Positions 1,820 through 60,904 of a DNA stretch of 64,000 bases are shown here, piece after piece. Positions within the stretch are counted from its first letter, which is position 1, and every line of letters begins with the position of its first letter. The stretch comes from Nymphaea colorata. Taxonomy: Eukaryota; Streptophyta; Magnoliopsida; Nymphaeales; Nymphaeaceae. The translations under genes and the position numbers were made by a program. The stretch lies in assembly GCF_008831285.2 (NCBI RefSeq), contig NC_045150.1, positions 9,684,001 through 9,748,000 of the forward strand. The letters run 5' to 3'. Below the pieces are notes generated by a model that was given only the letters and a program-made list of their open reading frames with translations, had not been told where the DNA came from and did not search any database.

Positions 1820-4800
1820 CTACCAGCTCTCAGCAATGTGCCTCGGGTAGGCCCATAACTTGGGCAGTCTGACATCTGCAAAGAGAGTCTCTTCTGAATC
1901 ACCGTCGCTCTCGGAAGATGAGCTTTCAGATAGGGACTCCCCAAGGAGGTAATCTACAACCTGGAAAAAGGAAAAAGTTACCTTAACAATTCATCGTCTA
2001 CCAAACCCCATGATTAAGAAGATCCTATGATGACATCGAGTCGAGTAGCAACTAGCAACCAATGCATTGAAGAAACTTCTAGAGCATGAGAGAGAGAGAG
2101 AGAGAGAGAGAGAGTTCACACAATTTTTTGTTAATTAAACATAGAGAAATACTATAAGAATGCGACCACAAAAATCCTAAAAATAAGTGATTTATTTCAA
2201 GAACCATAATATAAATACCGTTTTCTCTACTAACATTCATTCCCTATACCTATTTGGTAGCACTGTTACAGTGTTACTAATGACATGAAGCCACAAAAAT
2301 CAATTCAGGATATGTATCTCCATAAAGCACGAAGGGGTTTTTCACATACCTGATTAGGTGATATAGGCTTGACTTTTGACCGGTGGCTTCCAAGATCCAA
2401 TTCACAATGTATTCCAGTCCTTGCTATGTTGCTGAGCCAGATCACTGACTTGCACTGTGGACAGTATCCCCTGCTTGACACAAGCTTTCTAGCTGATTTG
2501 CCTGCATTTGCAAAAAAATGGCCGAAGCATGTAACAAGGAGCAGATGGAGATAATTCTAAATAGAAAACAAGAAAAGAATTACAAAGTTCAAGAGCAACT
2601 CAAGTTGAAACCTTTTTTGTTCTGTTAACCGTACATGTTCAGGCATGCATTCACTGGATCAAACAGTACAAGACCTCCCAGCTAAGTGACCTAGACTAAG
2701 CAGATCAGGAACACCAATTCCACCACACGGTATGGTATAGGTCCTTCATATTTGACATGGAAAAGGGGGAAAAGAAAAAGCATCTGGAAAGCTCAACCAA
2801 GAAGCTCATTTGATTGATCCAGTGACAAGTATATTGAATTTATGTAGGTGTGTTTGCTAAATACATTACAACGTTTCATATTTCCAAACAGCAAGTCCTA
2901 TGAATCTTAGACATCCTCCCATGAGAAAGGAGGAGGTCACCATGTTGCAGCTCTTAAACATATAAGAAAATGGGAAAAACACACCTTGTAGTGCAAAATC
3001 TGAAACGGTCCTAATGCCAAGGGGAAATTATCATTGAAAACAGTCTTAAAATTTTCAACCTGCTTCCATTTGCAGGACCACAGTGTTAATTCAAGCTGAA
3101 GGTTACATCGCAGAGTTATGACAAGTAAGCCGAGAATGCCTGAATCCTCAGGACTCCCACATTTTTGGGTAGTTTCCTCAGATTGACAATGGGAAGAAGC
3201 TTTCCTTGAGCTCCCTCAAGGCTCCTTACCAAGTCGAGTCCTTGTCAAGCTAGAAGCCACCTCCATTTCCTCATATAATTTGAGATAATCTTTGTTTATG
3301 CCAGGTAGTACATTCTGCATCATCCATTTATATCTCATTAACACTATTGTCTTGTATTTTCCGGACAAGGAGTATGGAAAGACTCTCAAGTCCCAATCAA
3401 CCATAAGAAAATATTGTGCCACTGATCGTGTTACAATTATTGCAGTTTTACAGAAAAACACATCACTGGATGGTGTCTCACCAAGATTGCAGCTTTCCAA
3501 CAATTTCTGCAATTTTTCAAAAAACACAAAGAATTTTACCTACAGTATTTCTACTGCATTTCTGTGTAATTTTTTTTCCAATTATTTTTCGTGAGCTTGT
3601 TAATGACAATGTCAAAAGGACAAGATTTTGGATTTTCCCACAAGATGTTGGGTGTTGATATTTCAACAATTTAAGTTTTTTATTCAAACGACGTAAGTTG
3701 TCAAAATCAAAAGGGAGACATAAACAGTTCAATACTATAAAAGACTAGTCAGGACTAGTCTGTCCAAGCTGATAATGCACAAAAATACACACACAAAATG
3801 CATAATGTCAGAGTTTGCTAATGAGTAGGCTGACTAGTTGATATGAGCCCGTGACCAATCCCAGCCATGACCATATTAGCCTCATAAACCCCCCATTTTT
3901 TTTCCCTTGCAGATAGAGGTCTGCCTCGGAGTGCCATCATCAAATCTACATAGAACCAGAAGTAGCACCTCTTTTTCTCTTGCTTCTGGAATCATGCACA
4001 ACAAGTCGGAGATCAAAATCCAGCCCCAACAGATGTGTGCCACCTCATTTCTTAACTTAGACTCATCTAGCAGTCTGCATGCGGACAATCCTTGCTCACC
4101 AACTGCAGAACAAGCACTATCATTTCAGTGCATCACTCCAGTAGCTTCCCAAATGAGCTTCCCGCCATGCAACAGGACTTTCAGTAGGTCTAGTTCCCAA
4201 CTAGACCAGGGTGCCATGAATATGATGTCCTTTGATGGTACTTCCAACCTTCTACAACACATACAAGAAGACAGAGGGCATTTAGGTGAATGGTTATTGG
4301 AGTGTTTCACTTGTGAATATCCAAATCCAGGTCTGCCTCCTTTACTACTCTTAAATATGGATCACTTTTGGACCAAGCACTTATTACTGTCCACCATCAC
4401 CTTGTTGGGCTCAACTCTTAGTGGGTGAAGCAAAAGCACAAGTCAAACCAAGAGGGACATGCAGAAGAGAAAATTCAATACCTTGTGATCTCGTTTCCTA
4501 TTGGTTGAAGACCATCATGGAGAAGGCACAAACCAAGGCATTACCACCTCCTTAAGCTTACTTCATAAAGGGATAAAGAATAGATGTCTTCCCAAATACC
4601 ACCCAAATGTTCATCTTGAGCATACTATCAACCGGTCTTTTAAAAGAGGTGAGGTGGCACGTGATGGGCCAAGCCTCCTACTCAAGCTTGGTGCACATAA
4701 GGAGAGAAAGAAGTATCTCCACCAGCACACCCTTAAGAGAACGAATATGATTGGTGGTAGGGTAAGCAGCTCATCAAAAACACCTCAAAAGAAAACAAGC

Positions 4801-6059
4801 AAGACGGAAAGAGGCCTACAATTACAATTCTTGACTCTTCAAAGCCTCTTGCTCAACTGTTTTGGCAAAACTCGTATGATTGGAGGAAGGGCTGAGCAAC
4901 GCAATTATTATCTTCCAAGAGAGAAACCGTAAGGAAGGAGAAGGAGCCCACCTTCGATGACTTCAGCGAAACACATGCTCTCTTGCACTTGGAAGAGAGG
5001 CTCCTTAATTCACATGCATAAATAAGAAGACCTTCTCTACCATTCCCTTTCCTTTTGCAATGTAATTGTCAACTAATAGCTGATAGGTTGAGCTATGAGC
5101 AGCAATTAATGAAGCCAAAAAGGAATAGCTCGTATAGAGAAGAAAGACTTCCATGCTTACAATGTTTCACTTTTCTATATTAAGTAAGGAAAGGAATACA
5201 CGGCGCATAGCAAGGGAAAGGATATCACCACCCCATGCTCAATTGAAGCTGACTTCCTGTTGGACACAATTTAATGAAGACCCTCAAAAGAGTCTCGTGC
5301 ATAAGGAGACCTCTTCCTCCAACCAACACTCATGGCTTCCCTTACACCCAATTGGAAAAAAGACAGCCTAACACTTATGGAGAAGCAATTAATAACGCCC
5401 AAGGAGAAAAGCTCAAGCAAGAAAAAGAAGAAGCACATGCCTACAACTTTTGACATGTTCACATGGATAGCTTAATATGCATGGACCACATCTAACTTGA
5501 AATCCCTGCATAGAAATGCATGAATATCCACCGGTCTACTTTTTGAAGGACAAGAAATATGCACACTAGTCCATGAAGGAGCTCTAGCTTGCTATTAGTC
5601 GGTGCCCAACTTAAACTTCAAGCAAGATGAGTGCATGTTAAGAAGAGCATCCACTGTTTTCTGTTTGTGAAAGTTAAAGATGTGCTCATTCTTTATTTGT
5701 TGAAATTCCTGCATCAGTTCTCTCTCATTTGATATGCTTAATTGTGTATAATTATTATTTTTCAAGTTTTTCCATAAACGTAACTCATGCACAATGTAAG
5801 GGGTCATCTTTGAACGGCGTATTGAATTAATTGTCTTCGCTCTCCTTTGAGAGATTTCTTCATTGTGTCCTTCATTTCTTGTCTTAATTCCAAGCTACAG
5901 TAAGCTAGTCCAACCAACTCTACTGACAGTCCTCCAGCTGCAACTCCGGCGAAGCACCAGAGGTCTCCAACTTGGATGGAGGCCCTACTTCTCATCATTG
6001 CGACCCCGGGTCCCCGGGGATGCATCGGAGCTCTTCGGCGGATAGAAGAGAGTCTAGTC

Positions 6060-6127
<68 letters not shown>

Positions 6128-8794
6128 CCCCATCCTCACTCCCAGTGCCCTAACAATGTCCCGCCTCTCTCCTTACTCTCCTAGAAGGCACCCCAACCAT
6201 GCCCTGGTGCTCGACCTTGCTAGGACCTCAAGAAGAACAACGCCTTGGGATCTTGGAGCAAGGACCGCAGCTGGACCGTGTGCCTCCGCCACTCAGTAGC
6301 CCTCCAGTCGTGAGTCCCACCACTAGTTGACTATTTTGACCAACTAGTCGCTGGTTTGACAACAGTAGTCAGTTGACAACCGACTCAACCAACCTACTTA
6401 GCCTAGGGCAGAATTTAGCTACTAAGTGAACGGCACATTTTCAGTATTCAAACCAAGAAACCATATGTACCCAAATGACTAACTGCCAATTTACTCGGTA
6501 ACTTGAAGCATGACAGTTTTGCAACTCATATAGATCTAGTGCTTTGCATAGGTCAGACGTGTGAATTATATATTCATTATCCCAATTACACATATAAAAC
6601 AGAATGGGCTCAGCGGGCAACTCAGCCAGGTTAGCTCAGTTCTTATTTGTTTGGTGCACACTTAATAAGCTGCAATGACTCACATACAAAAGAAACAGTT
6701 TGCTACATCAATAAGAAAAAGCAGAATTAACGTGTGTGAAACGAAATTCAGTTTTCTTTCGAGATTAATAATAACTACTTAAAGGCTTGTAAAAGTTAAA
6801 CTATATCAGATGTCAAACCACATCCACGTGCCTACAAATACCTTAAAGTCTTGTAAAAGATAAAACTATTAATTTAAAGAACCATGTCCACATACCTACA
6901 AATACCTTCTTAAAAACATCTTTCCAATCAAAATCTGCAGTATGATGAACTAATTTCTCATCTTGATGCTGGTCCAACGAACACATCCCTTGTCCATTAC
7001 TTCCGTGAAGCCTTTCATGGTCTCCAAAAAGAAGACTGTATTGTGCCTTCCATAATTTATCCTCATTTGCAGCAGAGTACCAAGACCTTCAAAATAACAT
7101 AATGATGAATTATGCTCATCCAGAAAAACTGGAACTGAAATAAAGAACCATTGTGCATGAGGATATTACTGGCACACTAAACCAACTGTAGCCAGAGACC
7201 GTATATCAAGGAAGGTGAAGATATGGACAAGAACATCGTGAGGCAGTGACAATGGGCCTGAAATAAACACCAGAAAAAAAAAACACACAAAAGGAACTTC
7301 ATAATACTTCAAAGGGCATTGAACTGAAAGCACAGGGAAAAACTAGAACATGAAAGGTATCCCAACAATATGGCAAAATAAGGAAGCATGAAAAATAAGT
7401 GATTGCTAAAATTTGTTCCAGTGTCAGGCATGCCAACAAAATGGAAAAATAAGGAAGATTGAAAAAGAAGCAATTGCCTAAATTTCCTCAAGTTCAAACT
7501 CGGTCTTGTATTGCATGGCAATAAACATGCAAAGAAACTGAGCTTTTCAAATAGGAGAGCTAGAAAGAGGGATTACCTCCTCTAGAAAACCATCGATATT
7601 ATCATTAGAGAAAGTGAAATAATAAATAGGATCATAGTTAAAAGGCAGAATAGAAACAACAAGAAGATAGAGAAGACATGAACCAAATAGAATAAACAAG
7701 CATGTTCAGGATGAGGAGCTCCTGTCAGGGACACTCCGATTTACCTTCTTCATCATTCTGATGTTTAGAACGCCTTTTACATGCAACTACCGCATGTTTA
7801 TACTCACTAGCAGTTAATGCTCTTTTCTGCTTTGGCAACACTGCCTCTGCCGCTTGGAGAAGAAGGCTAGCTGATGATATTCCCCGGCTTGTGTGCACTC
7901 TGGCAAAAATCGCTCATAAGAAAAAGTATATAAACAGTACAAGATACTTCAGACTCTTATTAACATCAATACACGCAATAAAGCAGATACAGTCCACAAA
8001 CAAAGCATTACACCTCTTCTAACAAATGCAAAGCAAACTTTAAAACCTTTGATTTATGAAAAAAAAATTAAGACGGTCAGATAACAATAATCAGAGATTG
8101 TATCTGACGTTTCTAACTTTCCATCAAATCAACTACCTCTACCGTAATTCTTGTGGCCAGTAGATTCAAAATGGAAAATCTTTTCTCACCATCATCATGG
8201 CTTTCGAATTGCTTCGTTGTAAACGTCAAAAGAACTGTAATGCAGAAATTGCATCTTGTCAAACTTCAGGGAAGATGATCTTAGATACGTGGGAAAGCTT
8301 TTCCCGGTGTCACCATTTGCAGAAAGATGGCATAAAACGCACAGGAAACGATCTTGGAAACCTACAACCCATGCCTCAGATAATGAAAGTAGAGTTCAAC
8401 TTACTATCTCAATCTATAATTCCCACAGGCAATCCTTTATAGGAGGATAGGAACATTTCCCACGAAATGTAAAGGCTCTTCCGGTCAGTGTCGCGTTACT
8501 CTTAAACTTCCGAATTAGTTTCAGGAAGTTGAAAAAGCCTAAACAAAATTAACTATAGACGAACATCACTTTGAGAGAACACGAAGGAGAAGATAATGAT
8601 TGGTGAGAAGGAACATACTGGGGAAGGAAGCGGAAAGCGGAGAGAGTGTCGTGAAAGATGAGCTCTCGGAGGGGCTTGGAGGCATTGGGGAAGACGTCCC
8701 TAAGGATGAAGGACAGCTCCTTGCACGCCCACGGGTAGTCGACGCCTCTCGACAGACCGTCCTTCACCCCTATCCCCTTGTACCTCTCCAACAT
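1820..8794 (-). CDS. F-box protein, At5g52880-like
   Basis: Six exons on the minus strand (8619-8794, 7745-7899, 7170-7257, 6896-7086, 2350-2501, 1820-1960) join through GT-AG introns into 301 codons. The start is LERYKGIGVKDGLS, followed by CKELSFILRD, SLLLQAAEAVLPKQKR and an F-box at residues ~111-160 (SLPHDVLVHIFTFLD, then VGLVCQSW and LWKAQYSLLFG). A CPQC pair lies at 217-220 and a Ser/Asp/Glu-rich tail at ~263-280, ending LWAYPRHIAESW. This order matches my memory of Arabidopsis At5g52880. F-box proteins bind SKP1 and recruit substrates to SCF ubiquitin ligases; the target of this family is unknown to me. A Met nine codons upstream (8821) is an alternative start. The 4.4 kb intron before exon 5 is unusually long. 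Frame closes exactly across all junctions, so the model is strong. Confidence 0.9.
2088..2114. repeat. (GA)n microsatellite
   Basis: A pure GA run inside the last intron of the F-box gene, about 130 bases downstream (on the + axis) of exon 6. Confidence 0.95.
2502..6895 (-). other. 4.4 kb intron of the F-box gene, repeat-bearing
   Basis: This intron lies between exon 4 (ending in codons for VFV plus one base) and exon 5 (starting GC, completing Gly). It holds low-quality open frames at 3907-4428 and 4501-4932 with no recognisable protein on either strand, a TC/TA microsatellite at 6060-6126, and a second copy of the exon-4 donor region near 6831. Its size suggests transposon insertion, but I could not identify an element or its ends. 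Confidence 0.7.
6060..6126. repeat. Compound (TC)n(TA)n microsatellite
   Basis: About 20 bases of TC are followed by 46 bases of TA inside the large F-box intron. The run is likely length-variable. Confidence 0.95.
6783..6905 (-). repeat. Tandem duplication of the exon-4 splice-donor region
   Basis: The string CCTACAAATACCTT occurs at 6831 and again at 6895, a period of 64 bases, with similar flanks (CCACATCCACGTG and CCATGTCCACATA; CTTGTAAAAG after the first). The copy at 6895 is the real end of exon 4 with donor GTATGT. In the downstream copy the matching site reads GCACGT, so it lacks a GT. Confidence 0.7.
7357..7485. repeat. Imperfect ~70-bp tandem duplication in an intron
   Basis: Two copies, starting near 7357 and 7427, share CCAACAATATGG / CCAACAAAATGG, AAATAAGGAAG and ATTGCTAAAATTT / ATTGCCTAAATTT. 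They lie in the intron between F-box exons 2 and 3. Confidence 0.7.
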
Positions 8795-8821
8795 CCGTAT
8801 AGTCAGCAGTCTGTCCAACAA

Positions 8822-9983
8822 CCTCCTCTCCTCCCTCCCCCACGATTTTCCTTATGCCCTGTTTGGATGGAGGAAAGGAGAGAAAAAGGAATGGATTGAA
8901 AGGAAAGAAAATGAAAAGGAGGAAAAGAGAATGAGGAGGGAAAGAAGAGGAAAGGATGTCAAGCATCTTTTCTTACTGTCTCAATTTCTCCAATTTTAAA
9001 GGGATTGGATTTACATTTATCTTTCTTTTGCTTTCCCTTCCTCTGAAGAAGTTTTTATGTCCGATTCGATTACAGCCTCCAAGCCTCGCGCAAATAGATA
9101 GAGAAATCCCTCCGCACAGAACTGCAAATTCTCTACCCTCACACAGAGAAATCCCTCTCGGAAAATTCTCCTATTCTGCTGCTGCTGCTCCCCTCGCCCG
9201 CATCTCCTCTGTTCTCGTTGGGAAGCAGGGCGGCAGTTGTCTGGCCTCCAATAGCCCTCGTTTTGGGTCTGAAGCTCTGAATCACCGTATTAACCCTCGC
9301 GGTGCGGCATAAAGGAAGGGTCGGGACACGTTAACGAAGGAGGATATGGATATAATATTAGAGAATTACAAAAAACACCCAATTATAGCTTATAATGACC
9401 GCGTAACTGCTACCTTTCGAGATTTTACCCTTCATCATCATCGCTTGTTTGAAGGAAGTCTTTCCTACAAAAAAGCGCTTAGTTTTTAAACTCACAACAA
9501 AAACATGCTTACATTTAACCTCTCAAAGCTTTGCTTGTAAGCACAATAATACTTAAATAACTCGTAGAGGAAAAAATAGAAAAGAAAAATATATAGCACA
9601 CAAGCTTCATTTATCATTTGTTGATACACTTTGATACATGGACATAGAGACTCCGGTCTCCAATTTTTCATACCCTTTATTACTAAACGCAATAGACAAC
9701 CACCACCCTAAGCAAAATACGTACAGAAGCTATATATTATGAAACCGCGAAAATTTTTGGGAAAGAAAGAGAACCAATACACTAAAATTTGGACAGCCTC
9801 TCAATCTCCTCTACTAATCAATAGGATCTTCACAAATGACTGCGACCCACAAAAATAGCGAGCTTTCTTTGGAGTTGCAGTTGTCTACAAGACTTCCCTT
9901 CCGAGCGAACCGTGGAAGACGTGTACCCTTCGAGAGAAGAGTAGCCAGAAAGGAGCCGAAGCGACTCATTCGTTCTATCCATG
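8822..9983. promoter_or_regulatory. Intergenic: F-box promoter side and ATPase 3' flank
   Basis: This spacer separates the tandem minus-strand genes. The half next to the F-box gene (8822-9300) is purine-rich on the + strand, hence pyrimidine-rich on the coding strand, and fits a 5' UTR or core promoter, although no clear TATA box is seen. TGCCCTGTTTGGATGG at 8855 resembles a MITE end. The half nearer 9984 is AT-rich and should hold the ATPase 3' UTR; TTTATT near 9677 would read AATAAA on the minus strand. Confidence 0.45.
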
Positions 9984-12900
9984 CTACAGGAAATATGTGA
10001 GTTGCTGCTTCTTCCTTGAACCGCCCTCACCATATAGGTCATTCCACTGCTTCAGTTCATTCATTACAGATCCTTCAGATGCAAAGCTTGCAGCCACCTG
10101 TGTATGAAAAGAAAAAACGAAGCGGAATTACCAACCACAACCATGTTGAACTTCACAGGCCAGAAGGTTCCGTGGGGTTGGACTATAATCAACTAAAAAG
10201 ATGGGGCTCACCTGATTCTTTGACCACCTCATGTCTTCCATCGTCAAAGGCCGGAGTGTAATTGGTGGCTCTTCCTTATCCCCTTCAGAAGTCTCACCTT
10301 CTTCCGTTGTCTTGTTTGCCTCTTCCTCAGATTTCGCCTTTCGTTCCTAGCAGATGTGGTGGTCTTAAGACTTTGAGCCACAAAAATAGGCAAGATGTCA
10401 AACTAAGAAATTCTCGATAAATTATTCACCTTGGCCAATTCTTGCTGCAGTAGCTCCCTAACAGGACGATATGCAGCGGTTGTACAAAGATTCTGTACCA
10501 AATGCAGAAGATACTGAAATTCTGAGAGAGGATAGAAAGATCTAGGAATTGTTACTAAAAACCATTAGTATCAACTTCAACTGACCTTCAGATCACTGCC
10601 GGTGTATCCTTCTGTCATTGTAGCAAGTTCCTTGTAGTCGAGCTCTTCCACTTTCTCCTTTGATAAGAGAGTCTTCAAGATTTGCTCTCTGTTTTCTGCT
10701 GTTGGTAAACCAACCATAATTCTGCATAGATGGTCATTGGAGTAAGTTAGGTCGGTAAGTGAACTGATACATACGTGTGGGCGGTTCATGCATGTCTATG
10801 AAGTATGAAATGTACCTGCGCTCAAACCGTCGGATAATTGCTTCATCAAGGTCAAATGGCCTGTTTGTAGCAGCGAGAACAAGGATCCTTTCACCTGGCT
10901 TTGTCAAAAGACCATCCCAGTGGGCCATGAACTCATTCTTGATCTTGCGCATGGCTTCATGCTCGCCAACTCTGGACCTCTGCCCAAGCATGCTGTCAAC
11001 CTCGTCCACAAAGATGATCGTGGGAGAAACCTTGGCAGCAAGAGAAAAGAGAGCTCTGACGTTTTTCTCATCTTCACCAAACCACTTTGAGGTGATGGTG
11101 GACATGGAGACATTGATGAAGCTCGCTTTGGCTTCATTTGCTATCGCCTTGGCAAGCATGGTTTTACCAGTCCCAGGTGGTCCAAATAGTAGTATACCCC
11201 GGCAAGGCTTTAACAACCCTCCTTTGAAGAGGTCAGGTCTCCGAAGGGGAAGCATAACCAGCTCCTGCAGTGACTCCTTTATATCATCAAGGGCACCTAT
11301 ATCTTCAAATGTTACTCCAATTTCATTTGGAGGAATGACTTCAGGCCTGATACGCTTCTCAAACTCATTATCAGGAGGAACTTCCTGTTCATAAATGCAA
11401 AGCAATAAGAGAGACTGGACAGAAAGTGGATTACTATCCAAAAATTCAGAGGTCAGAAATTAATGGTCTAAACTTCAAGCAGATGCAAGTAAATCTAACA
11501 AGTACAGTTGGGGTTAAGTACAGAACACAACTTGTAAACCATAGGGTAAAAAAATTGAGGGAACAAATTTTCATGAGAACAGGATAACAGCATGAGAAAT
11601 AGGTACCTTAGCAGGAGTAACATCTTTCTTCGCTGCAGAAGCTGACTTCTCTGCCTCACCCTTGTTTTCAGGTGCTGATGATTCGCTTTTTGCTTCAGGC
11701 TTAACAGAAGCCACTGAATCTTCCTCCTCGTTCCCCTGCAAGAAGAATTTGTTGGGTACAAAAGATTTCTCGTTGAAAGTTTCATTTATCTCACAATGTA
11801 ATAGAACTACCTTGGAGGCATCTGCATTTGCTTCCATTTTCAGAGTGTCTTTGTCATCAAGCTTGCTTTCTTGGAATATACTCAATCCATGAGAGAGACT
11901 GATCAACAAAGATGTGAAGAGTGAAACGACAAGTACAAGGTATCAAAACAAGCAAAACAAACAAGCAACCTTTTTCACCTCTTGGATGAGATAACAAGCT
12001 TTCCGTTTCTGTACTCAGGATCCTTGGTGTGCATTAGATGATAGGATACAGCAGAAACCACTATCTCTTCTATGTAATTACTCAGAACCATTGTATCAGC
12101 AACGCAGATAGAACCAAGATCATCACAGTCAAGGTCATTTGCGGCTAGGACCTCTGTAATGTGGTTCCTGTTATCTTGAAATTGGATCATTTTCATGTCT
12201 TCTTCCAATTGAGCCTTCCAACTAACAAGATGACCCTCATCTTCGGGTGGCCTAATCTCGATATTGTAAGGAAATAAGAGAGATAACTTCTCACCCACTT
12301 CCCCGCAATCATTACCAGGCTCCAAAATTCTTGAGCCAAGAATAAGAACAGATCCCGAGAGCTTATCCAACATTTTCTGAAATAAGGAGTAGACCCTCTG
12401 TGATCTAAGGAGAACACACTCAACATCTCTGATGTAAAGTACAACAGGTTTTGTTTTCGAGACTGCCACCAGAACCTATCAAGTATAATCAAAATTCGAA
12501 ATTAACAAAGCTACACCTCAATAATTAAAAAAACCAAGCATATACGGCTAGCCAATTAAAAGAATAATAACTTCCAAAAGAGCAAATAAATGGAAACAAA
12601 GTAATGAGAAAAAGAAAATAAAGCATGGTGTGGTTGATAAAGATAAACTATTGTAAATGCAACCTGCATTTCAGATCTAAAGGCAAATATTTGGAGTGTT
12701 ACCTTGTAAAGGGATTGTATAAAAACCTTCTCGTCAAATGCCCAGCTGCTAGTACGCTTGAGTGGAGCTACAGGCCAGCAAGATACAAGAATTCATGAGA
12801 TAACGTACAACGGTACAACATAAAATAGCAAACAAATAAATGTATGACATAATTTGGACAAACCAGCCTAAGTACTGTTGGTCTTACCTGGATTAGCAGG

Positions 12901-59029: not shown

Positions 59030-59699
59030 GATCACTAAAAAAAAAAAAGAAGAGACAGATTCATCCACGGGTAAGAAAACTAGACGTCGATAAAAAGTAA
59101 CTTCTACTAACATCCGGCTTTAAATGTAAGTGAAGATTAAGTTTCGCCAACATCCAGAACAAGACGTTAGTAAAAGTAGCCTTCATAGACACTTGCTGCT
59201 AGGATGTCGTTGAAGTTGAACTTTTAGTCATGTCTACTTTACAATCCATAAAAAAGTAAGTTTTACTGACATGTGGTGATGCTCACATTGCTAAAAAACT
59301 CTTTAATTAACACGTAAAACGTCGGTAAAAGTTACCGCAAAACTTTTATAAACGTTTTTAAGTAAACCTTTACAGACACATTTTACACATCGGTAAAAGC
59401 CTTCCCAATGCACTTCACACGTCGCTAAATCTTTCCTGACCCTGTAACTCTGCTTGAGCTTTTCTTCTCCTTTCTTCTTCTTCTTCCATCTTTTTCTTTC
59501 TCCTCCTTCTTGCTATCAACATTTATCAAAGTGCCCATTGTAGGTGTTCTTCATCAATTTTTGACATCTAAATAAAAAAGTTAGGTTGTTCAAACTTGAT
59601 GTTCAGTTTTTTTTATTTGTGAATGATTTTAGGTGATGATATTGTTTTAGGGTAATTATTTTAGGTTTTTTGCTTCAAGTTTTTATTCTTTTGCATTCC

Positions 59700-59773
59700 A
59701 GCCTTCTTCTCCAAACGGCAAAGGCAGTGTTGCCAAAGAAGAAAAGAACATTAGCTACTAGTGAGGTAGTTGC
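59700..59773 (+). pseudogene. Captured fragment of F-box gene exon 2
   Basis: This stretch aligns with the coding strand of F-box exon 2 (7868 down to 7783). Sixty-six bases align with six mismatches, then 12 bases (TATAAACATGCG in the gene) are missing, then GTAGTTGC matches again. In the gene's frame it reads LLLQTAKAVLPKKKR versus LLLQAAEAVLPKQKR and runs into a TAG stop at ~59781. Four of the six differences are G in the gene and A here, as expected from decay at methylated cytosines. It is in the transposon interior and is not expected to be functional. Confidence 0.85.
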
Positions 59774-59783
59774 TTTATTCTAG

Positions 59784-60030
59784 TTGGTTCATGTCTTCTC
59801 TATCTTCTTGTTTATTCTATTTGGTTCATGTCTTCTCTATCTATTTATTGTTTCTTGTTGTTTATTTTATTTGGTTCTGTTTATTCTATTTGGTTCATGT
59901 CTTCTTTACCTTCTTACTGTTTCTTGTTGTTTATTCTATGTGGTTCATGTCTTCTCTATCTATTTATTGTTTCTTGTTGTTTATTTTATTTGGTTCATGT
60001 CTTTTTTATCTTTTTGTTGCTTCTATAATT
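59784..60030 (+). repeat. 50-bp minisatellite inside the CACTA element
   Basis: The unit begins TTGGTTCATGTCTTCTCTAT and has full or near-full copies at 59821-59870, 59890-59939 and 59940-59989. A shortened 37-base copy lies at 59784-59820, a 19-base partial at 59871-59889 and a decaying copy at 59990-60030. Because the unit lacks stops, three overlapping frames stay open here; they are artefacts. Confidence 0.92.
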
Positions 60031-60164
60031 GAGGTAATCATTTTAAGTTTTCTTTTTCATGCTTTTTTCAGTTTTGCTGCAGCTATATATGTTTGATATA
60101 AATGCAATGCACAAGGATATGGGTCCATAAAAAAAAATAAATCTTCACAGACACATGCAATTGC

Positions 60165-60209
60165 GTTGATAAATATATTACCAACGGTTGATAAATATAT
60201 TACCAACGT
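60165..60209. repeat. 22-bp tandem duplication
   Basis: GTTGATAAATATATTACCAA followed by CG is repeated twice in direct succession within the right arm of the CACTA element. Confidence 0.85.
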
Positions 60210-60904
60210 CCACCTGTATGCCAATAAAAGTTTTACTAATACCCAAAACATATCGGTAAAAATTCTACCGATGCATGCCACGTGTTAGTAAAAATTTTAC
60301 CAATTCATGTCACATGTCCGTGAAAGTTTTATTACCGACATCCTCGGATGTCGTTAATAATTTTATTTACCAATGCACATGATGTGTCAGTGCAGAATTC
60401 TACATTGACGGGTGGGCTTGAATGTCAGTGATAGTTTTCATCGACATTATCTTCACCATCGACTGCCTCGAACGTCAGTAAAATGTTTATCAACGCGTAG
60501 CCATGTTTTACCGATGTTTTTTAGCTGTCGGTAAATCCCCAGTTTTCTTTTTTGTAATGGATGGAAACTCATATCCTTGAGGAATGTATTCGAGCTTTGG
60601 AATCAGTTGAAGATAACAAAGGAAAATTCTTGATTCAATCCAACAATGGGGATTGGAAACACTAGTTTGCGCTCAGTTTAGAAGATGGCCCCTTGCTGAA
60701 GTTCCGCATATTTTATGGGTTACTCCAAATAATGGTTTGTATAGGATGTGGAATTGCCAAGAAGGCAATTGTGACCCTTGCAAAGTATCTGTACATGTGG
60801 GTTAAGGTCTTGGGTTTGGTCCATTTTTTCTGTACATAATTCACAATTTTGTTCTTAATAAAGGAAGGGGGCCTATCCCCCGAGCAGCCTCCACCCGAAG
60901 GTAA

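Follow-up and report, generated by a model that had tools for sequence, protein, structure and literature searches.

The window analyzed here, 64 kb of a 408-Mb Nymphaea colorata assembly (C13:9684001–9748000), contains an F-box gene and, some distance away, a short transposon-like element carrying a stretch that resembles part of that gene. The locus raises the question of whether the element took up host DNA, from which gene, how many times, and by which route. It is very probable that a single, old capture from the F-box gene was followed by internal loss, growth of a short array, and dispersal of the copies. The features on which this reading is built are collected in Table I.

Table I. 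Features of the donor gene and of the element, in window positions
Feature	Positions	Strand	Remarks
Donor gene, F-box protein of At5g52880 type	6843–8794	−	3′ end provisional
Donor-gene exons	~8794–8619, 7899–7745, 7257–7170, from 7086	−	Limits read by eye
F-box gene exon 2	7745–7899	−	Limits set by eye from splice signals and frame; inside Pfam At5g52880_ARM
Donor interval in longest captured copy (L026)	7572–8009	−	From late intron 1 through exon 2 into early intron 2
Left target-site duplication	59030–59032	.	GAT
Non-autonomous CACTA element (F-box, group B copy)	59033–60559	+	Plus is the family's transposase-sense direction
Left end, subterminal GTCGGTAAAAG-like repeats	59033–59400	+	Repeat scan; alignment to sister copies
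Conserved core (leader region)	59401–59700	+	Matched by relative L076 to ~59654
Candidate leader intron (inferred), in core	5′ site 59580–59582		TT instead of GT; acceptor TTTTGCATTCCAG retained
First repeat R copy	59649–59669	+	AGGGTAATTATTTTAGGTTTT
Captured F-box exon 2 piece	59700–59773	+	Gene 7868–7803, then 7790–7783 past a 12-base loss
Array of about five copies of 50-bp F-box intron 2 piece	59774–60026	+	Gene 7700–7649
Second repeat R copy, F-box-copy type	60031–60051	+	GAGGTAATCATTTTAAG
Right end with subterminal repeats	60120–60559	+	Starts near A-rich tract, terminus of two other captures
Right target-site duplication	60560–60562	.	GAT

Transposons of the CACTA superfamily generate 3-bp target-site duplications and carry short subterminal repeats that cluster at both ends. 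The window element starts with CACTAAAAAAA and finishes with TTTTTTGTAATG. Its left end, CACTAAAAAAAAAAAAGAAG, and its right end, CATTACAAAAAAGAAAAC as reverse complement, contain terminal inverted repeats that read CACTA on the left and CATTA on the right (TAATG on the plus strand). Twelve GTCGGTAAAAG sites are present at two mismatches or fewer, compared with a mean of 0.4 and a maximum of 3 in 200 shuffles; the left 390 bp and the right 437 bp contain six each, and the middle 700 bp has none. Many sister copies end in CACTACAAAAAA or near variants, and the termini recur among them, query base 1 being reached in L030 and L039 and query base 1527 in L010, L017, L028, and L044. Target duplications outside the window were accepted for L029, L036, and L042 by a scan that gave a bonus to matching triplets; in the same scan most remaining copies had no match, and perfect duplications were few.

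The ends, core, and F-box pieces explain the window copy, and no transposase match lies at its place among the matches listed. No family end or core sequence was found elsewhere in the window, and a search for an empty site with the joined flanks matched only the window's own two flanks. The sequence-only reading had placed a CACTA-type element at 59033–60559, and the GAT duplications, the ends, and the 12 subterminal repeats bear this out. By those sequence features of Pack-CACTA elements that could be checked, the window element can be assigned to that class. It is an old, decayed copy that most likely is inert at present. An exact 22-bp tandem duplication (GTTGATAAATATATTACCAACG) is present at 60165–60208 in the right subterminal region.

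Positions 59700–59765 align without gaps to exon 2 of the F-box gene at 60 of 66 bases (score 102); the maximum score of 300 dinucleotide shuffles against 6801–9300 was 36. Read directly from the sequence, a 12-base gap and then eight identical bases follow, precisely as counted in the sequence-only reading, and only part of exon 2 is represented. That reading confined the capture to the exon. The likeness to exon 2 is real, but it continues past 59773 into intron 2: the region 59774–60026 comprises five units of approximately 50 bp, 90–94% identical to intron 2 at 7700–7649, and a shorter additional unit that is 85% identical. The longest exact run shared with intron 2 is 36 nt. Since intron 2 sequence lies beside the exon piece, the captured material was genomic DNA and not spliced message. 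The intron piece is taken to have multiplied inside the element after capture.

The donor protein, spliced by eye, matches PF24104 (At5g52880_ARM, E 6.4e-28) and PF12937 (F-box-like, E 3.7e-16). Searching the assembly with gene positions 7500–8000 returned 60 pieces at 22 places, 21 of which are copies of the element family; the remaining place is the window gene. Of six matches from a protein search for the donor, four fall within the window gene and the other two within the element copies L029 and L026. As just one of the 22 places lies outside the element family, and this is the gene that had been named as donor from the sequence alone, this gene is, by these searches, the only donor candidate found in the assembly. 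Two apparent second donors (C5:1819100 and C9:12227635) were rejected, both being element copies. The repetition of the stretch across many element copies might also be read in the reverse direction, with the F-box gene having gained exon 2 and introns from the element. This is scarcely credible, given that exon 2 lies within the curated At5g52880_ARM domain of this F-box protein family, and that the stretch is present in some copies only, others carrying two different genes there. The F-box gene is adjoined by an AAA-ATPase gene (10734–12475, minus strand; PF00004, E 2.9e-39 for 10734–11459).

Searching the assembly with the element gave 118 match pieces in at least 40 loci by our own grouping, the window copy counted. 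The family counts are lower bounds; the best 40 of 118 matches were scored in the element search and the best 40 of 74 in the core search. Forty-two copies, some incomplete, could be oriented (two sets of 39 and 2, plus the window copy) and were sorted by ourselves from alignments and searches. The repeated copies proposed in the sequence-only reading are thus present as sister copies in the genome, F-box remnants occurring in 24 of the 42; five contain amine oxidase sequence, four P450 reductase, and three an insert designated T4, and in six (L033, L038, L039, L041, L045, and L046) no host gene was identified. Outside the 42 are L069 and L077, which were added later, and L070, an amine oxidase match with just two short core matches. 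The refutation test attached to that reading was also run: the other matches proved to be element copies, and 59033 and 60559 recurred as match ends elsewhere. Fifteen of the F-box copies have an exon match, eight have intron parts only in the same search, and one (L022) was recognized through junction alignment only.

Two groups of F-box copies are distinguished by their left borders. Group A (L024, L026, L029, L032, and L056) has a common border at donor 8008–8011, with identities of 82–86% to the gene and 72–83% among the five. Relative to the gene, all five have eight substituted columns in common, along with a length difference of 12 bases; L026 extends to donor 7572 and L029 to 7633, and L032 and L024 lack some inner parts. 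Approximately 200–430 bp of the captured F-box piece is preserved in five copies. In group B the left border is donor 7868, and the leader CATTCCAG is joined straight to exon 2. This derived, window-type junction, CATTCCAG followed by CCTTCTTC, is found in 14 of the 42 copies (the window copy, L009, L011–L016, L018–L020, L022, L023, and L057), with base changes in some. L023 retains 12 bases that are absent from the window copy, and therefore looks like an intermediate that orders the deletions. On the right, the F-box capture has no sharp junction.

The window exon piece is the most gene-like among group B copies (90.9% of 66). This, together with the occurrence of donor and copy in one window, would suit the local capture put forward in the sequence-only reading, by which the window copy itself took its piece from the gene 52 kb off. 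Local capture is very improbable, however, and finds no support among the copies: the same junctions and 50-bp units are present on many contigs, longer versions exist elsewhere (L026 and L029), and the lead of the window copy over the runner-up (L018, 90.7% over 54 bp) is slight.

The difference in left borders could also mean that groups A and B arose independently, in two or more captures from the same F-box gene. L026, L029, and L056 of group A read TAATGAG (TAATGAGTTT) where most group B copies read TAGTGAG, as in the gene; being more gene-like here, group B would be a sister of the group A copies seen and not their offspring, which separate captures would also accommodate. Separate captures are nevertheless unlikely. 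Groups A and B agree in intron unit, orientation, slot, and type of second repeat R, and a single deletion between two AG sites turns the A border into the B border. The second repeat R after the insert, of GAGGTAATCATTTTA type (GAGGTAATCATTTTAGG), is found in 19 of the 24 F-box copies, from both groups, and in none of the 18 others. Within five mismatches, the second R is absent from L016, L017, L020, L022, and L057, and the first from L010, L030, L047, and L056. A second R common to groups A and B fits one capture and subsequent decay better than two captures.

A tree of the core (30 rows) resolves little. It is star-like, with none of 27 inner branches strongly supported and a median end branch of 0.11, a shape that suggests a burst of copying and then long decay. 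F-box copies are not grouped in this tree, and it was rejected as proof of one F-box clade; consequently, the argument for a single capture is made from the shared junctions and not from a clade.

Two further host genes are represented in the same slot. Copper amine oxidase pieces are found in L028, L037, L042, L043, and L044, as well as L069, and the donor (L068, C3:953000–962000) matches PF02728 and PF01179. L028, L043, and L069 have a common internal loss from donor ~4612 to 5063; L042 contains sequence that these three lack, and either stems from a second capture or preserves an older state. Approximately 150 bp without assigned origin separate the core from the gene match in most amine oxidase copies. 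NADPH-P450 reductase pieces are found in L021 and L034, and small portions also in L027 and L031 (phmmer 1.5e-10 and 1.2e-4), the donor being L075 (C3:16237900–16239100). In L021 and L034 the reductase likeness resumes at donor 811 and stops at 1066–1067.

The F-box, amine oxidase, and reductase captures are all in sense as read from the left end. The chance of three out of three in the same orientation is one in four, and this agreement is at most a hint. On the left side, the family's shared sequence stops within a span of approximately 80 bp across the three gene classes; on the right, the amine oxidase and reductase inserts (two of three classes) end within approximately 20 bp of one A-rich tract. 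A fourth slot content, T4, is present in L025, L035, L040, and L077, with a repeated unit of approximately 170 bp in L025. T4 was rejected as a fourth gene, as the best match to the insert of L025, L035, and L040 outside the copies already compared, on C10, is the element copy L077, and no host gene was recognized; a further match lies at C5:7833427. The F-box copies appear to have arisen on a T4 background.

The former content of the slot is suggested by a relative, L076 (C11:2817100–2819500), with a core match at C11:2817555–2817781 among the best 40 of 74 scored. A PF02992 transposase match is located 1.1 kb beyond this core on the same strand, with stops in the stretch read. The likeness of L076 to the window copy ends at ~59654, and L039 and L041 follow L076 further. 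These two were dismissed as a further capture; since they match L076 just past the core, what they contain is probably left over from the element itself. With a transposase match following the same leader, the slot seems to be where the transposase gene belongs, and the captured pieces appear to occupy the position where that gene begins. Most of the transposase matches listed contain stops, and no intact partner element is among them. Many stops interrupt the reading frames of L076.

According to the single-capture reading, a genomic segment of the F-box gene, approximately 440 bp long, would have been inserted between the leader region, which would have been transcribed, and the right end of an ancestral element. 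Most likely, a break in this element was repaired by copying from host genes, with entry at short shared stretches; such stretches are present at the joins (AATGCTT at the F-box left join and ACATGGATCTTG at the L042 left join). A transposase acting in trans may then have mobilized the element, and its copies spread through the genome. In the window lineage, deletions would have fused the leader CATTCCAG to exon 2 and removed the remaining exon, and the 50-bp intron piece would have grown into a tandem array.

The capture step itself has a rival in the published Pack-CACTA model (described in PMC8903248 and PMC13317346), in which two family members flanking the F-box segment would lose their inner ends and move jointly. 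The internal position of the host DNA between conserved ends conforms to such a fusion, and the repeat R on both sides of the insert is a possible trace of two overlapping half elements. For this family fusion is possible but doubtful. With three genes in one slot and clustered borders, the parents would already have had to be broken there, and the short homology at the joins fits template switching. No family sequence was found at the reductase donor (in 1.2 kb), at the amine oxidase donor (in 9 kb), or elsewhere in the window. Furthermore, repeat R is already doubled in L025 and L040, copies that hold no known gene. Template-switching repair is preferred here as the more likely route.

A silencing locus requires perfect identity of approximately 21 nt or more to the mRNA. 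The longest exact identity between the window element and F-box exonic sequence is 17 nt (exon 2), and the 36-nt run falls within intron 2 only. Given this exonic maximum, and a piece that runs in sense with the transposase of the family, a role in silencing the F-box mRNA seems unlikely, and the earlier proposal of small RNAs against the F-box gene is unsupported.

One may speculate that the slot is a working exon cassette, in which the promoter and leader intron of the lost transposase gene are retained and sense host exons located behind the leader acceptor site are spliced onto the leader. The resulting host-mRNA-like RNA would be less silenced, and such copies would spread. A cassette would explain the three sense captures, the exact join of exon 2 to CATTCCAG, and the retention of the leader GT; even so, it has only a small chance of being correct. 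In a scan with our own motifs and cut-offs, omitting copies below score (10 of 42 at the 5′ site and 18 of 42 at the 3′ site), GT is present at the start of the candidate leader intron in 24 of the 32 copies that could be aligned, and AG at its end in 14 of 24. At 59581–59582 the window copy has TT, and its candidate 5′ splice site has therefore probably been lost.

Within one family, the stages of capture can be aligned from a transposase-bearing relative through a near-whole piece to a piece decayed into a tandem array. That a single slot has received three unrelated genes, all in one orientation, makes a capture hot spot a testable proposition. For annotation, there is a risk that some twenty loci would be called as F-box pseudogenes.

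The original Pack-CACTA/Pack-TYPE paper is said to be that of Catoni (2019). As with the Pack-CACTA and Pack-TYPE elements described in PMC8903248 and PMC13317346, the Nymphaea elements are non-autonomous, with CACTA ends, a short target duplication, an internal host gene fragment, and several sister copies. Different host genes in different subgroups are also reported for other Pack families, such as Zm-Pack-PIF cluster 18 (PMC8903248). In contrast to the Pack-CACTA elements of that account, the Nymphaea family is old and decayed, includes introns, has three genes in one slot at the transposase place, and contains a captured intron piece that has turned into a short tandem array. The same source gives 5-nt duplications for rice and maize CACTA elements, compared with 3 nt for the Nymphaea window element.

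Tgm-Express1 of soybean, as described in PMC1947982, is likewise a CACTA element containing host gene fragments with introns. However, it holds five fragments in one element, compared with at most one identified host gene per Nymphaea copy, and spliced chimeric RNAs were demonstrated for it. Chenopodium CACTA elements (PMC8978399) also have captured gene sequence in their 5′ part, before the first ORF, and tandem arrays inside the elements, and the authors propose capture-prone regions. In that account the fragments lie upstream of retained element domains and the arrays in the 3′ region, whereas the Nymphaea window copy is without a transposase and its array derives from a captured intron. 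Cactavine-5 of grapevine (PMC2528002) is similarly a CACTA family with a transduplicated gene piece; this piece is downstream of the transposase and in the opposite orientation, unlike the three sense pieces in the transposase place in Nymphaea.

A literature search, which was not exhaustive, found no report linking CACTA elements with F-box and amine oxidase gene fragments. The uptake of gene pieces by such elements, as Pack-CACTA or transduplication, is a known process of which the Nymphaea family is a good example. What seems less usual, by this non-exhaustive comparison, is the occurrence side by side of a slot used for three genes, a transposase-bearing relative, and decayed copies.
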